Program-made: the position numbers and the translations under genes
The notes under the pieces: generated by a model
The model's input: the letters and a program-made list of their open reading frames with translations, nothing else
Told to the model about the DNA's origin: nothing
Databases searched by the model: none
Shown here: in pieces, positions 33,393 to 41,050 of the stretch
How positions within the stretch are numbered: the first letter of the stretch is position 1
Layout: each line of letters starts with the position of its first letter
NCBI GenBank assembly: GCA_026692705.1
Contig: JAPLOE010000097.1
Location: forward strand, 1-64,000
Reading direction: 5' to 3'
DNA: 64,000 bases
Source: Planctomycetota bacterium
GTDB taxonomy: Bacteria > Planctomycetota > UBA1135 > GCA-002686595

Positions 33393-33623
33393 ATGTCGCT
33401 CCAACGCGTGCTGGCCAACTCGACCAAGATCCTCGCCAACCAGTCCACGATCCGCACGAATCAGGCGCGCATCCTGCGCAACCAGGAATCGATCCGCGGC
33501 AACCAGAAGCTCATCCTCACCAACCAGGGCAAGATCCAGTCGAACCAGGGCAAGCTCGACCAGATCCTCGCCAACCAGAAGGCGATCCTGGCGAACCAGA
33601 AGAAGATCCTCGCGCGAGGCTGA
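33393..33623 (+). CDS. Small protein of I-x-x-N-Q heptad repeats
   Basis: A 76-residue protein with a good ribosome-binding site (AAGGA, 6 bases before ATG). Almost the whole chain is nine to ten heptads of the form I/L-x-x-N-Q-x-x (ILANQST, IRTNQAR, ILRNQES, IRGNQKL, ILTNQGK and so on), with one three-residue stutter (LDQ). Hydrophobic at position a and Asn at position d is the pattern of trimeric coiled coils whose Asn layers hold an anion in the core (the IxxNTxx 'N@d' motif of trimeric autotransporters). No signal peptide is seen. It ends 17 bases before the start of the selenoprotein gene and is probably co-transcribed with it. Confidence 0.8.
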   Translation: MSLQRVLANSTKILANQSTIRTNQARILRNQESIRGNQKLILTNQGKIQSNQGKLDQILANQKAILANQKKILARG

Positions 33624-33640: not shown

Positions 33641-34294
33641 GTGCGACTTCCGTTTGGACCTCGATGGCGGAGCGTGTTCCTGGCGCTCGGCGCGCTCGTG
33701 CTCGCCGTCGGCGGTTGGTTCGTGTGGCAGATCGGTCCCCGCAACGTCTGGGGGATCCTGTGGTACGACACGCGCCGCGAAGGGGATCTTCGAGTCGGCG
33801 ACGCCGCGCCCGACCTCGAACTGCTCGCGCTCGACGGCCAGACCCTGCGGCTCCACGAGCGCATCGGCGAGCAGCCGCTCGTCCTCGTGTTCGGCAGCTT
33901 CACCTGACCGCCCTTCCGGCGCTCGGTCGAGCGTCTCGTCCGGCTGGCGAAAGAGCACGCGCACCATGCGCGCTTCCTCACGATCTACATCCGCGAGGCC
34001 CACCCGACAGACGAGTGGCAGATGGACAGCAACGAGACCGACGGCGTCTGCTACCCGCAGCCGCGCACGAGCGAGGAACGCGTCGCGATCGCGCGCGACT
34101 TCGTCGGTCGGTACGAGTACCCGATCGAGCTTGTGGTCGACAGAATCGAGAACCCTGCCGACGCCGTGTACGCCGGCTGGCCCGAGCGTCTCTACGTGAT
34201 AGACGCGCAGGGCAAGCTCACCTACAAGGGCGAGCTCGGCCCGTTTGGCTTCGATCCCGAGGCGGTCGAGGCGCTGCTCGACGCCCTGCCGTAG
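33641..34294 (+). CDS. Iodothyronine deiodinase-like selenoprotein (TGA = Sec)
   Basis: The ORF track breaks this gene at TGA 33905-33907, but the frame continues unbroken to 34294. From the GTG at 33641 it encodes 217 residues with Sec at 89. An N-terminal membrane anchor (VFLALGALVLAVGGWFVW) is followed by a thioredoxin-fold redoxin. The active site reads VFGSFT-U-PPF, as in vertebrate deiodinases (FGSCT-U-PSF/PPF) and with Cys in most bacterial homologues. FLTIYIREAHPTDEWQM matches the deiodinase YIxEAHxxDxW block. The C-terminus (PERLYVIDAQGKLTYKG) completes the fold. A SECIS-like hairpin follows the TGA. The natural substrate is unknown and a redox or reductive dehalogenation role is inferred. 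Confidence 0.88.
33905..33943 (+). promoter_or_regulatory. Sec codon and SECIS-like hairpin of the deiodinase-like gene
   Basis: The TGA at 33905 is followed 17 nt later by GGTC (33925-33928), the loop of a hairpin with stem CGCTC/GAGCG (33920-33924 and 33929-33933), extended by CCGG/CCGG around a one-sided bulge. A GGUC apical loop at this distance is the layout of the E. coli fdhF SECIS (18 nt), the site bound by SelB. Confidence 0.75.
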
Positions 34295-36118: not shown

Positions 36119-38959
36119 TCAGGGCTGCACGAAGCGCCAGCCGAAACGTCCCTTGATGCACAGGTTGCCGAGCGTGATGCGGTTGTCGAGCGGTGACGTG
36201 GCCTTGATGATCTTCCCGTGCTGAACGTGGAGGCGCAGCGTGCAACCCACGCCGCAGTAGGGGCAGATCGTATCGGCCGTCGTCTCCTGGCGCTCGTCGT
36301 GGTGGCCCGCCGCACGCAGGTCGAACTCGTCCTTCGCCATCAGCGCGCCCGTCGGGCACACCGCGATGCAGTTGCCGCAGTACACGCAGGCCGATTCCGG
36401 CAACGGCACGTCGAACTCGGTCGAGATGCGCGCGTCGAAGCCTCGGCCCGCGACGCCGATCGCGAAGCTGTTCTGGTGGTCCTCGCCGCAGGCCTCGACG
36501 CACTTGTAGCAGAGCACGCACTTGCCGTAGTCGCGCACGTACAGGTCGTTGTCGATCTTCACGGGCTGCGCGACGCTCGCGGCGAGGTCGACGAGCGCGG
36601 GCTCGTGGTGGCCGGCGAGCGCGCCGTCGCGCTCGTGCGTACCCTGCGGCGTGCCGTAGCGGCCGGGTTGCGCTCCGTACTCGACGAGGCGGCGCTGCAG
36701 CTCGGGCGCGGTCGACAGGTCGACCGACGAGGCGAGCATCTCGAGCACGAACTTGCGCGCGTGCCGCACGCGCGGCGACTGCGTGTGCACCTTCATGCCG
36801 GGCTCGACGGCGCGTGAACAGCTCGGCGCGAGCACACGGGCGCCCTCGACCTCGACCACGCACAGGCGGCAGGCGTTCGCGGGCGAGAGCGTCTCGAGGA
36901 AACACAGCGTCGGCACGTCGAGGCCCTGCGCGCGCGCCGCCTGCAGGATCGTCGTGCCCGCGGGCACCGCGACCGTGCGGCCGTCGAGCGTGAATTCGAT
37001 CGCGCCATCGGTCGACGCAGGCTTGCTCGCGGGTGTTCCGGCCGCCGCAGCCAGCGTGAGCGGCGCCGAGGGCTCACCGAACAGCTTCAGGCGCTTCACT
37101 GCCGATTCCACGGCGGAATACGCGGTCTGGCCGAGTCCGCAGATCGACGCGTCCTTCATGCCGGCGCCGACGTGCTCGAGCAGCGCGAGCTCTTCCTGCA
37201 CGCTGCCCCTCGGCTTGCCGCAGGCGATGCGCGCGAGCGCTTCTTCCTGACGCACCGTGCCGACGCGACAGGGCACGCATTGGCCGCACGATTCCTCGCG
37301 GAAAAAGCGCGCGATGCGCGCCACGTGCTCAGTGAGATCGACCGTGTCGTCGAACAGCATCACGACGCCGGAGCCGAGCGTCGCTCCCGCCGCGCGCGCA
37401 CCTTCCATCGAGAGCTCGACGTCGAGCTCATCGGGGCGCACGAAACCACCCGCAGCGCCGCCGAGCAGCACGGCTTGCAGCTTGCGACCTTCGGGCACGC
37501 CGCCCGCGAGCTCGACCAGCTCGCGCAACTTCGTCCCGCACGCGACTTCATACACACCCGGCCGCCGCACGTTGCCGCTGAGACAGAAGAGCCGCGTTCC
37601 CGTCGATTGCGCGGTTCCGACGCTCGCGTAGGCCTTCGCTCCTTCGGTGAGGATCGGCAGCACGTTCGCGAGCGTCTCGACGTTGTTGACCACCGTCGGC
37701 TTCCCGAACAGGCCCGATTGCACCGGGAACGGCGGCTTGGAACGCGGCTCGCCGCGACGGCCCTCGATCGACTCGAACAGCGCCGTCTCCTCGCCGCAGA
37801 TGTACGCGCCCGCACCGCGTCGCACCTCGATGTCGAACTCGAAGCCGCGACCGCCGATGTCGAGGCCGAGCAGCCCCGCCTTGCGCGCGGCCGCACACGC
37901 GTGCTCGAGCCGCTTGCTCGCGAGCGGGTACTCGTCGCGCACGTACAGGTAACCCTTCGAGCAACCCGCCGCGTACGCCGCGACCGTCATCGCCTCGACG
38001 ATCGCGAACGGATCGCCGGTGAGCAGCGTGCGATCCTTGAACGTGCCCGGTTCCGATTCGTCGGCGTTGCAGACGATGTAGCGCGGTGTCGCCGGTTCCT
38101 TGCGCACGGCTTCCCACTTGCGTCCCGTGGGGAACGCTGCGCCGCCGCGACCGACGAGCTTCGAGTCGGTCACCTCGCGAATCACGGCCTCGGGCCCGAG
38201 CTCGAAGGCACGCTCGAGCGCGCGATAGCCGCCGTGGCGCCGGTAATCGTCGAGACTTTCGGGATCGACGACGCCGACGCGCGCGAGCAGCCGCAGCGCC
38301 GGTGAGTCGTGTTGCGGGAGACGCTTGTCCCCGCAGGCGTCGGGCGTTCCCGCAGGCGAGCGCAGCAGCTTGAGCACGCGCTCCACCGTGACTTCCCCGG
38401 CGGAAATGCCGAGCGGCTGCGCGCCAGCTTCCGTCACCAGCGCCGCGGGCGCGCGGTCGCACAGCCCCAGGCACGGCGAGCGCATCCACGCGGGCCGCTC
38501 CGCGTCGTGCTCGAGCGTGTCGCCTTCGTGCGCATCCTTCGCGTGGCCGAGCGCGGGCCCGAGCTCGCGCTCCAGCTCTGCGCACAGCTTCTGCGCGCCC
38601 TTCGCGCGGCAACCGATGTCGTCGCACACGTGCACGACGCGCCGCGGGCGCGGCTCGGTCGCGAGCAGCGCATAGAACGTCGCCACCGACCACGCTTCCG
38701 CCGGCGGCAGCCCGAGCCGCTCGCACACATACGCGAGCCCACCTTCGCTGATCCAGCCGACACGATCCTGCAACGCATGCAAGCACGGCAGGAGCAGGTG
38801 CCGCTCCGCACGTTTGGCGGCGCCACCTATCGCGACACGCCCGTCGCGCTCGCTCTTCGTCGTCGCACCTTCCCACGACGAGCGCGGCTCGCCGAGCAGG
38901 GCATCGATCGCGGCGCGCTCTTCGGCGTTGGGCCGGGCTTCCGGCAGGCGGATGTCCAT
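36119..38959 (-). CDS. NuoE-NuoF-NuoG-like fusion, NAD-linked formate dehydrogenase diaphorase subunit
   Basis: A 946-residue fusion starting 5 bases after the fdh catalytic gene. Domain order: NuoE-like 2Fe-2S thioredoxin fold (about 30-185, HVCDDIGC then SPCLGLCDRAP); NuoF-like FMN/NADH domain (about 220-610, GRGGAAFPTGRKWE, NADESEPGTFKDR, YICGEETALFESIEG) with its 4Fe-4S site (ESCGQCVPCRVGT); NuoG-like 2Fe-2S (about 660-740, LSPANACRLCVVEVEG); two 4Fe-4S clusters (CVLCYKCVEACGEDH, CVYCGNCIAVCPTGAL); and finally CPYCGVGC...LCIKGRFGWRFV. This last piece is the N-terminal 4Fe-4S domain of molybdopterin formate dehydrogenases, here at the C-terminus of another subunit. It passes electrons between NAD(H) and the catalytic subunit. 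Confidence 0.9.
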   Translation of the reverse strand: MDIRLPEARPNAEERAAIDALLGEPRSSWEGATTKSERDGRVAIGGAAKRAERHLLLPCLHALQDRVGWISEGGLAYVCERLGLPPAEAWSVATFYALLATEPRPRRVVHVCDDIGCRAKGAQKLCAELERELGPALGHAKDAHEGDTLEHDAERPAWMRSPCLGLCDRAPAALVTEAGAQPLGISAGEVTVERVLKLLRSPAGTPDACGDKRLPQHDSPALRLLARVGVVDPESLDDYRRHGGYRALERAFELGPEAVIREVTDSKLVGRGGAAFPTGRKWEAVRKEPATPRYIVCNADESEPGTFKDRTLLTGDPFAIVEAMTVAAYAAGCSKGYLYVRDEYPLASKRLEHACAAARKAGLLGLDIGGRGFEFDIEVRRGAGAYICGEETALFESIEGRRGEPRSKPPFPVQSGLFGKPTVVNNVETLANVLPILTEGAKAYASVGTAQSTGTRLFCLSGNVRRPGVYEVACGTKLRELVELAGGVPEGRKLQAVLLGGAAGGFVRPDELDVELSMEGARAAGATLGSGVVMLFDDTVDLTEHVARIARFFREESCGQCVPCRVGTVRQEEALARIACGKPRGSVQEELALLEHVGAGMKDASICGLGQTAYSAVESAVKRLKLFGEPSAPLTLAAAAGTPASKPASTDGAIEFTLDGRTVAVPAGTTILQAARAQGLDVPTLCFLETLSPANACRLCVVEVEGARVLAPSCSRAVEPGMKVHTQSPRVRHARKFVLEMLASSVDLSTAPELQRRLVEYGAQPGRYGTPQGTHERDGALAGHHEPALVDLAASVAQPVKIDNDLYVRDYGKCVLCYKCVEACGEDHQNSFAIGVAGRGFDARISTEFDVPLPESACVYCGNCIAVCPTGALMAKDEFDLRAAGHHDERQETTADTICPYCGVGCTLRLHVQHGKIIKATSPLDNRITLGNLCIKGRFGWRFVQP

Positions 38960-38964
38960 GCTCG

Positions 38965-40893
38965 TTATCTCGCGCTCGCCGGCTGGGCGACGGGCTCGAC
39001 GCGCACCGCGCAAGCCTTGAACTCGGCCGTGCCCGACTTGGGGTCCGAGGCGTCGATCGTGAGCACGTTCGTGTTGATTTCGTCGGGGAAATGCATCGTC
39101 ATGAAGACCAGGCCCGGGCGCAGGGCGCGGTCGATGTGCGCGGGTGCCTCGAGCTGGCCGCGGCGCGAGCGTACGGTGACGAGCGTCCCGTCGGCCACAC
39201 CGAGGCGCTCCGCATCCTCGACGCTCAGGCTGATGCGCTCGCCCAGATGCAGCGGCGAGCGATACCCGCCCGTCTGCACGCCGGTGTTGTAGGACTCGAG
39301 CCGGCGACCGGTCGTGAGCAGCAGCGGATACTCCGCGTCAGGCTTCTCGACGGGCCCTTCCCAGTTGACGACCGAGAACGGCGCGGCGCGACCGCCACGC
39401 GGCTCTTCCCACAGTCGACCGTGCAGGAACGGCGTGCCGGGATGCGACTCGTCGGGGCACGGCCACTGCAGTCCGCCGAGCGCATCGAGGCGCGCGTAGC
39501 TCATGCCGCCCGAAAAATGCGGCGCGACCGTGCGGAACTCGTTCCACACCGCCTCCGCCGTCGGATGGCCGAAGTCGACGCCGAGGCGCCGCGCGAGCTC
39601 CGACAGGATCCACAGCTCGTCCTTCGCGCCCGCGGGCGGCTCGACGGCCTTGCGAACACGCTGCACGCGGCGCTCGCTGTTCGTCACGGTGCCTTCACCT
39701 TCGCACCACGTCGCCGCGGCGGGCAACACGACGTGCGCGAGCTCGGCCGTGCGCGTCATCACGATCTCCTGCACGACGAGGTGCTCGAGCCCGCCGAGCA
39801 GGTGCTCCACGTGGTTCGAGTCCGCGTCCGACTGCGCCGGGTTCTCGCCGATCACGTAGAGCGCCGTCAGCTCCTTGCGCTCCATCGCGTGCAGCATCTG
39901 CGTCAGGTTCAGCCCGTAACGCGGCGCGAGCGGCACGCCCCAGTGGCGCTCGAAGCGCTCGCGGATCGCGGGATCGAGAATGTCCTGAAAACCCGGCAAA
40001 CGATTGGGAATCGCTCCCATGTCGCCGCCGCCTTGCACGTTGTTCTGACCGCGCAGCGGGTTGCAGCCCGAGCCCCACTTGCCGACGTGGCCGGTGAGCA
40101 ACGTCAGGTTGATCAGCGCGAGCACGTTGTCGACCGCGTCGTGGTGCTCGGTGATGCCGAGCGTCCAGCAGATCATCGCGTTCTTGGCCTTCGCGAACGC
40201 GTGCGCCGCCTCGCGGATCACGTCGGCCGGAACGCCGGTGATGCGCTCGCCCACCTCGAGCGTGTACGGCTCGACCGCCGCGCGGTACGCCTCGAAACCC
40301 TCGGTCGCGCGTTCGATGAACTTGGCGTCCGCGAGCCCCGCATGGATGATCTCGCGCGCCATCGCGTTCGAGAGCGCGATGTCGCTGCCCACGTCGAGCC
40401 CCAGCCACACGTCCGCCCACTGCGCCGACGAAGTGCGCCGCGGGTCGATCACGTACAGCCGCGTTCCGTTGTTGACGCCCTTGAGCAGGTGGTGGAACCA
40501 GATCGGGTGCGCCTCGCGCGCGTTCGAGCCCCACAGGAATACGACGTCAGCTACCTCCACCTCGCGGTAGGAGTTCGTGCCGCCGCCAGCACCAAAAACC
40601 GTCGCCAGACCGACGACGCTAGGTGCGTGTCACGTCCGGTTGCAGCTGTCGATGTTGTGGGTGCGGAACGCGACCCGCGCCAGCTTCTGCGCCAGGAAGT
40701 TCACCTCGTTGGTGGACTTCGAGCAACTGAAGATGCCGAGCGCGTCCCCGCCGCGAGCCTCCCGGGTGCGCCGGAACCCCTCCGCCGCGCGATCGAGCGC
40801 CTCGTCCCACGTCGCAGGACGCAGGACGCCGTTCTCACGCACGAGCGGTTGAGTCAGACGCGGCCGAGCCGGCCCGCTGGAACGCTTCTTCAA
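38965..40893 (-). CDS. fdhA: Selenocysteine formate dehydrogenase catalytic subunit (TGA = Sec)
   Basis: The ORF track shows two pieces (40630-40917 and 38965-40560), which are one frame interrupted by TGA at 40632-40630. Read as Sec, the site is IDSCNRT-U-HAPSVVGLATVFG, matching E. coli FdhF (CCARV-U-HGPSVAG). A TTG at 40893 after GGAAGGAAA is the likely start; a TTG at 40917 is the alternative. This gives 642 residues with Sec at about 88. Later blocks bind bis-molybdopterin (VVFLWGSNAREAHP, IGENPAQSDADSNH) and the C-terminal domain is present (YPLLLTTGRRLESYNTG). The usual N-terminal 4Fe-4S domain is absent here and is carried by the next gene. It oxidises formate or reduces CO2. Confidence 0.92.
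40600..40632 (-). promoter_or_regulatory. Sec codon and SECIS-like hairpin of fdhA
   Basis: On the minus strand TGA is followed by 18 nt and then GGTCT, the loop of a 7-bp stem CGTCGTC/GGCGACG (one G-U pair). Both the 18-nt spacing and the GGUCU loop equal those of the E. coli fdhF SECIS. The hairpin lies inside coding sequence, as in other bacterial SECIS elements. Confidence 0.85.
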
Positions 40894-41050
40894 GATCCGA
40901 TTTCCTTCCGGCGGCAAGCGCCGCCACCCTCAGGATGGGCCCCATCGCCCGCCCTCGCAAGCTCCGCGGTCGCTCCGTGCACGCACACCGGGCGGGAGAG
41001 GCGCCTTCAGCACCGATCCATGCTCGTCTCGAAGTCGGATCGAGCCGAAG

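Follow-up and report, generated by a model that had tools for sequence, protein, structure and literature searches.

A predicted membrane-anchored deiodinase-like selenoprotein of a planctomycete and the shifting second cysteine of its family

Deiodinase-like selenoproteins were described in bacteria by Zhang et al. in 2005 from the Sargasso Sea, with four selenocysteine (Sec) and six Cys sequences (PMC1088965), and also turned up in the Global Ocean Sampling data (PMC2398784). A 2026 review catalogue gives the motif of the family as UxxC (PMC13188914), and the main text of a selenoprotein study on cultured Planctomycetes does not mention a deiodinase (PMC4807772). Among the animal relatives, human Dio1 forms a selenenyl-sulfide with its proximal Cys, which is reduced by glutathione (PMC9141512).

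Here we describe a gene in a 64,000-nucleotide stretch of a Planctomycetota genome (assembly GCA_026692705.1, contig JAPLOE010000097.1, positions 1 to 64,000; hereafter the window). It is predicted to encode a membrane-anchored deiodinase-like selenoprotein and belongs to the family known since 2005, with which it has in common the Pfam family PF00837, Sec at the catalytic position, a bacterial SECIS and the existence of both Sec and Cys forms (PMC1088965, PMC13188914). It departs from the published picture in its motif, which is UPPF with the partner Cys elsewhere rather than UxxC, the latter marking a small clade of the phylum (5 of 141 domains); in the number of members in the phylum; and in the predominance of Sec (128 Sec against 13 Cys, compared with the four and six of the 2005 set). 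The features are as follows.

33393–33623, + strand: 76-residue NQ-heptad repeat protein (ILANQxx), probable coiled coil; 17 nt separate its end from the selenoprotein gene
33641–34294, + strand: deiodinase-like selenoprotein gene; GTG start, 217 codons plus stop; PF00837 across the TGA
33662–33733, + strand: predicted N-terminal membrane helix, residues 8–31, signal-anchor; long hydrophobic helix in the AlphaFold2 model; same segment in L021, L025 and L053–L055
33905–33907, + strand: TGA codon of Sec89, aligned with Sec170 of Dio3
33918–33935, + strand: SECIS-like hairpin GGCGCUC-GGUC-GAGCGUC, in agreement with the published bSECIS model; its loop lies 17 nt past the TGA
33986–34012, + strand: codons 116–124, YIREAHPTD; Tyr116, Glu119 and His121 equal Dio3 Tyr197, Glu200 and His202; invariant columns
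34049–34051, + strand: Cys137 (VCYPQP), the only other cysteine of the protein and proposed partner of Sec89; conserved throughout the window clade, whose members, unlike those of other clades, have no helix Cys
38965–40926, − strand: formate dehydrogenase molybdopterin-domain subunit, second Sec gene; TGA 40632–40630, NRT-U-HAPSVVGL; the upper limit is the upstream end of the frame, not a called start
40600–40618, − strand: SECIS-like hairpin for formate dehydrogenase, with its GGUCU loop 18 nt past the TGA of that gene

The frame that opens with GTG at 33641 runs to the stop at 34292–34294, and the in-frame TGA is its single interruption. The original prediction had proposed one gene split by this TGA, with an N-terminal membrane anchor, the motif FGSFT-U-PPF spanning the TGA and YIREAHPTDEW further on. 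All of this is borne out: the 217-residue read-through product includes both motifs as quoted, a helix is predicted at residues 8–31, the Pfam match crosses the TGA, and a six-frame search of the genome places a family match at the same position with exactly one TGA inside.

The match to Pfam T4_deiodinase (PF00837) covers residues 35–214 with E = 1.7e-35 and 122.9 bits, against a curated cut-off of 27 bits, and the AhpC-TSA (PF00578, 2.5e-8) and Redoxin matches are far weaker. By sequence, the closest solved structures are mouse Dio3 (4tr3, 4e-23) and Dio2 (9h48, 8e-22), followed by a hit at 0.002. The AlphaFold2 model, built from 31 rows of window and locus sequences only, has a pLDDT of 89.8 and shows the long N-terminal helix followed by strands and helices in thioredoxin-type order. 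A Foldseek search with this model puts Dio3 (5e-16) and Dio2 (1e-14) at the top; the next match has 2e-9, and peroxiredoxins and ResA/TlpA-like proteins come after it. AhpC/TSA peroxiredoxins and ResA/TlpA thiol-disulfide oxidoreductases belong to the same fold class; unlike them, the window protein has no CxxC and carries the deiodinase-specific EAHP motif and insertion.

With animal Dio1–3 (4tr3, 9h48) the protein shares the thioredoxin fold, the N-terminal anchor, T-U-PPF, the Tyr, Glu and His of YIxEAHP and the Arg of ERLY, at 31–36% identity in the fold alignment. Thr88, Sec89, Pro91, Tyr116, Glu119, Ala120 and His121 are invariant in the active-site alignment, and Ser86, Phe92 and Arg183 vary little or not at all. 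The residues put forward for the proton relay and substrate site of deiodinases (Ser86, Thr88, Tyr116, Glu119, His121) are present. Unlike the animal genes, the window gene has its bacterial SECIS within the coding region, and in the alignment its product has Phe in place of the proximal Cys of Dio1/Dio3, Ile in place of the distal Cys, Pro in place of Dio3 His219 (Dio1 His174) and Leu in place of Dio3 Arg275. The position of Phe258, which shields Sec in Dio2/3, is Pro in 59 of 59 bacterial sequences of the active-site alignment, and the Dio2 structure paper reports Pro at this place in Dio1 (PMC11592359). Since the protein has neither of the animal helper cysteines and lacks His219, the name ‘deiodinase’ denotes the family here and does not imply activity on iodothyronines.

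We infer incorporation of Sec at UGA codon 89, as originally predicted, from the family match, the alignment of the TGA, the SECIS and the machinery. In a deduplicated alignment of 141 bacterial domains the TGA of the window falls in the Sec column, with TGA in 128 domains and a Cys codon in 13, and 29 of 32 matches from 61 related genomes contain exactly one internal TGA. An independent Planctomycetota MAG (L053, protein 75% identical) and dozens of other genomes have TGA at the same codon, so it is not a sequencing error. Purifying selection acts on the codons that follow the TGA: in this part dN is 0.12 and dS 0.46 against L053, dN is below dS before the TGA as well, and dN is again below dS after it against L025, L021 and L054.

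The hairpin that had been noted after the TGA does have a GGUC loop (33925–33928) 17 nt past it; this distance counts to the loop, and the hairpin itself starts at 33918. Its stem of 7 bp and energy of about −10 to −11.6 kcal/mol lie within the published bSECIS limits (loop of 3–9 nt with G in its first two places, stem of 4–16 bp, 16–37 nt from the UGA, MFE ≤ −7.5). A fold of 36 nt of the region prefers a different, competing pairing, the window hairpin alone does not differ significantly from what synonymously shuffled sequences give (P 0.17), and an Rfam scan of the window gives no family at gathering score, with one weak chance match near the TGA. Across the family as a whole the enrichment is strongly significant. 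Hairpins with a G within the first two loop positions, a permitted distance from the TGA and an energy of ≤ −6 kcal/mol occur in 110 of 128 Sec genes, against 19.1 when the codons of these proteins are shuffled synonymously, and in one of 13 Cys genes (0.6 expected). The commonest loop is GGUC (55 genes), and the stem pairs covary, with C-G, G-C, A-U and G-U at one pair of third codon positions in the register of the window.

As for the Sec machinery, the search confirmed most of what was expected: the genome has a tRNA-Sec with UCA anticodon, SelA (E = 7e-124) and SelD (E = 1e-93), the latter adjoining SelA (L050:1921-2862, contig C167) and itself having an in-frame TGA (ADCAGUAGK). SelB was not found with a profile or with a SelB protein of the same family, both of which matched EF-Tu-like and other translation GTPases. 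One of these adjoins tRNA-Thr/Gly/Tyr, and EF-Tu genes often lie beside such tRNA genes. SelB is likely missing through an assembly gap, because the assembly is in 348 contigs and 89.3% complete and SelB scores above cut-off in 58 of 61 relatives, including all six others of the genus. The genome also holds several Sec genes besides SelA, SelD and tRNA-Sec. In the window itself the second one is the formate dehydrogenase gene, whose hairpin is the minimum-free-energy structure (z −2.8). The genes of the formate dehydrogenase locus (36119–40926, − strand) are unusually arranged. An upstream gene of its own encodes the molybdopterin-domain part with Sec, and the N-terminal Fe4S4 portion of the catalytic subunit is found at the end of a downstream fused gene resembling NuoE-NuoF-NuoG (964 aa). 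The arrangement looks like a split and permuted FdhA.

Sec members of the family almost always have a second Cys, and its place changes. Of the 128 Sec forms, 92 carry a single additional Cys in the core domain and only one carries none; a Poisson distribution of the same mean (1.34) gives 45 and 34, respectively. This Cys lies in a helix (columns 241/242, motif VAxxC) in 122 rows, in a loop (Cys137, VCYPQP) in the clade of six to which the window protein belongs, at +3 from Sec (UxxC) in five of 141 domains, and at −2 as in Dio1/Dio3 in L056, L080 and L030; column 235 is a further position. An alternative Cys is found in 17 of 19 rows without the helix Cys and in 6 of 122 rows with it (Fisher p 4e-15). 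Acidobacteriota without the helix Cys have the loop Cys (L181, L182) or the −2 Cys (L184, L188), and L183 has an extra Cys before YAGWPER. On the tree the loop and UxxC states have one origin each and the −2 state several. The pattern is phylogenetically clustered, and a tree-aware sign test of the relocation, with 2–5 independent pairs, had no power. We read the pattern as sequence evidence that the enzyme would cycle through a Sec-Cys bond. We found no report of a moving second Cys in the open-access literature searched, and its near-universal presence in Sec members at changing positions may be new.

We consider it probable that the window gene encodes an anchored, single-domain thioredoxin-fold selenoprotein in which UGA-89 is decoded as Sec, Sec89 is resolved by Cys137 and the chemistry is thiol or peroxide redox. 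In the suggested mechanism SelB and the hairpin just downstream would direct the decoding of UGA-89. Positive residues precede the membrane helix, which suggests that the N-terminus is inside and that the catalytic domain probably faces outward from the inner membrane. Sec89, with Ser86, Thr88, Tyr116, Glu119 and His121 as in animal deiodinases, would make the attack on its substrate, an oxidised or halogenated compound. Once oxidised, Sec89 would form a selenenyl-sulfide with Cys137, and a thiol donor would presumably re-reduce it.

That the enzyme needs no second Cys, being reduced directly by external thiols with Cys137 as a structural residue, we hold to be doubtful. Several Cys-catalytic Acidobacteriota members (L193–L196) have no partner at the listed positions, and with DTT as reductant Dio1 and Dio3 still turn over when they lack their helper cysteines; against this stand the second core Cys of 127 of 128 Sec members and the gain of Cys at one place that accompanies its loss at another. 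A genuine deiodinase or debrominase, reductively dehalogenating iodinated or brominated aromatics of the environment by the animal mechanism, would explain why all proposed catalytic residues near Sec are kept (Ser, Thr, Tyr, Glu, His and the Arg of FERLY/PERLY), why PPF is as in Dio2/3 and why Pro replaces the shielding Phe as in Dio1, and Dio2 is active in vitro without the proximal Cys. We nevertheless regard this as unlikely: no genetic link to halogen metabolism was seen near the gene, His219 and both helper cysteines are missing, the remaining fold neighbours are peroxiredoxins and ResA/TlpA-type oxidoreductases, and Zhang et al. expected a different function in bacteria, which make no thyroid hormone (PMC1088965). 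Judged from sequence and model, thiol/peroxide chemistry appears more likely than dehalogenation, given the lack of the animal helper residues and given that the weaker fold matches are to thiol oxidoreductases.

It is hardly credible that the gene is a pseudogene or an assembly error, with the TGA acting as an ordinary stop or standing for a miscalled TGC/TGG, and that a mere 88-residue stump is made. SelB is absent from the assembly and the hairpin of the single gene lacks significance, which would fit such a reading, but it is largely refuted by the same TGA in about 100 independent genomes, including the 75% identical homologue, by purifying selection past the TGA, by the SECIS enrichment in the family and by the presence of tRNA-Sec, SelA and SelD.

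The family is not rare in the phylum of the window, as had been assumed of bacterial members, and occurs in 117 of 392 genomes (~30%), mostly with Sec; the belief that most bacterial members have Cys is reversed in the aligned set. Acidobacteriota have matches in 29 of 297 genomes, and the 13 strongest all contain one TGA. Cys forms are small groups among Sec forms, with at least five changes on the unrooted tree, a scatter that fits Sec-to-Cys replacement. On plasmids there is one distant Cys form (L176:5824-6639, Mycolicibacterium vanbaalenii plasmid NZ_CP126902.1), and no member was found in phages. The plasmid gene lies between carboxymuconolactone-decarboxylase-family and glutaredoxin-domain genes, hinting at a thiol redox role.

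The nearest kin of the window protein are the Planctomycetota MAG L053, then G047 and G043, both from the same order, and the Acidobacteriota L054 and L055. All of them share a short N-terminal anchor together with a GPRN...YDxRxxG stretch. Many other members have EF-hands before the domain in place of the anchor. Within the phylum of the window, EF-hand repeats are fused ahead of the deiodinase-like domain in L024, L034, L064, L075 and others, in both Sec and Cys forms, and a calcium-linked selenoenzyme is possible. The NQ-heptad protein, which belongs to no Pfam family, has a homologue directly upstream of the selenoprotein gene in L053 and G047, and the two genes may form an operon. It is the only shared neighbour of the selenoprotein gene; the formate dehydrogenase surroundings are absent from the G047 and G043 stretches.

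Mouse Dio2 and Dio3, the two animal sequences included in the unrooted tree, fall inside the bacterial tree beside planctomycete Sec proteins, with SH-aLRT 97 for the joint group. They join it beside L063, which is among the few bacterial members with an equivalent of Dio3 His219 (QH motif). It is quite improbable, in our estimate, that Planctomycetota and Acidobacteriota are a main reservoir of Sec deiodinase-like proteins, that animal deiodinases descend from within it and that the anchored clade of the window is a working dehalogenase. If this were true, that history would include a resolving Cys that shifts among four or more places, with Sec keeping its position.

Stop-to-stop reading cuts such genes at the TGA, and a common bacterial selenoprotein family is thus easily hidden. 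Clades with the partner Cys in the helix, in the omega-loop region, at −2 or at +3 offer a natural experiment on the re-reduction step, and may serve as bacterial models for the animal deiodinases, in which this step is still debated.
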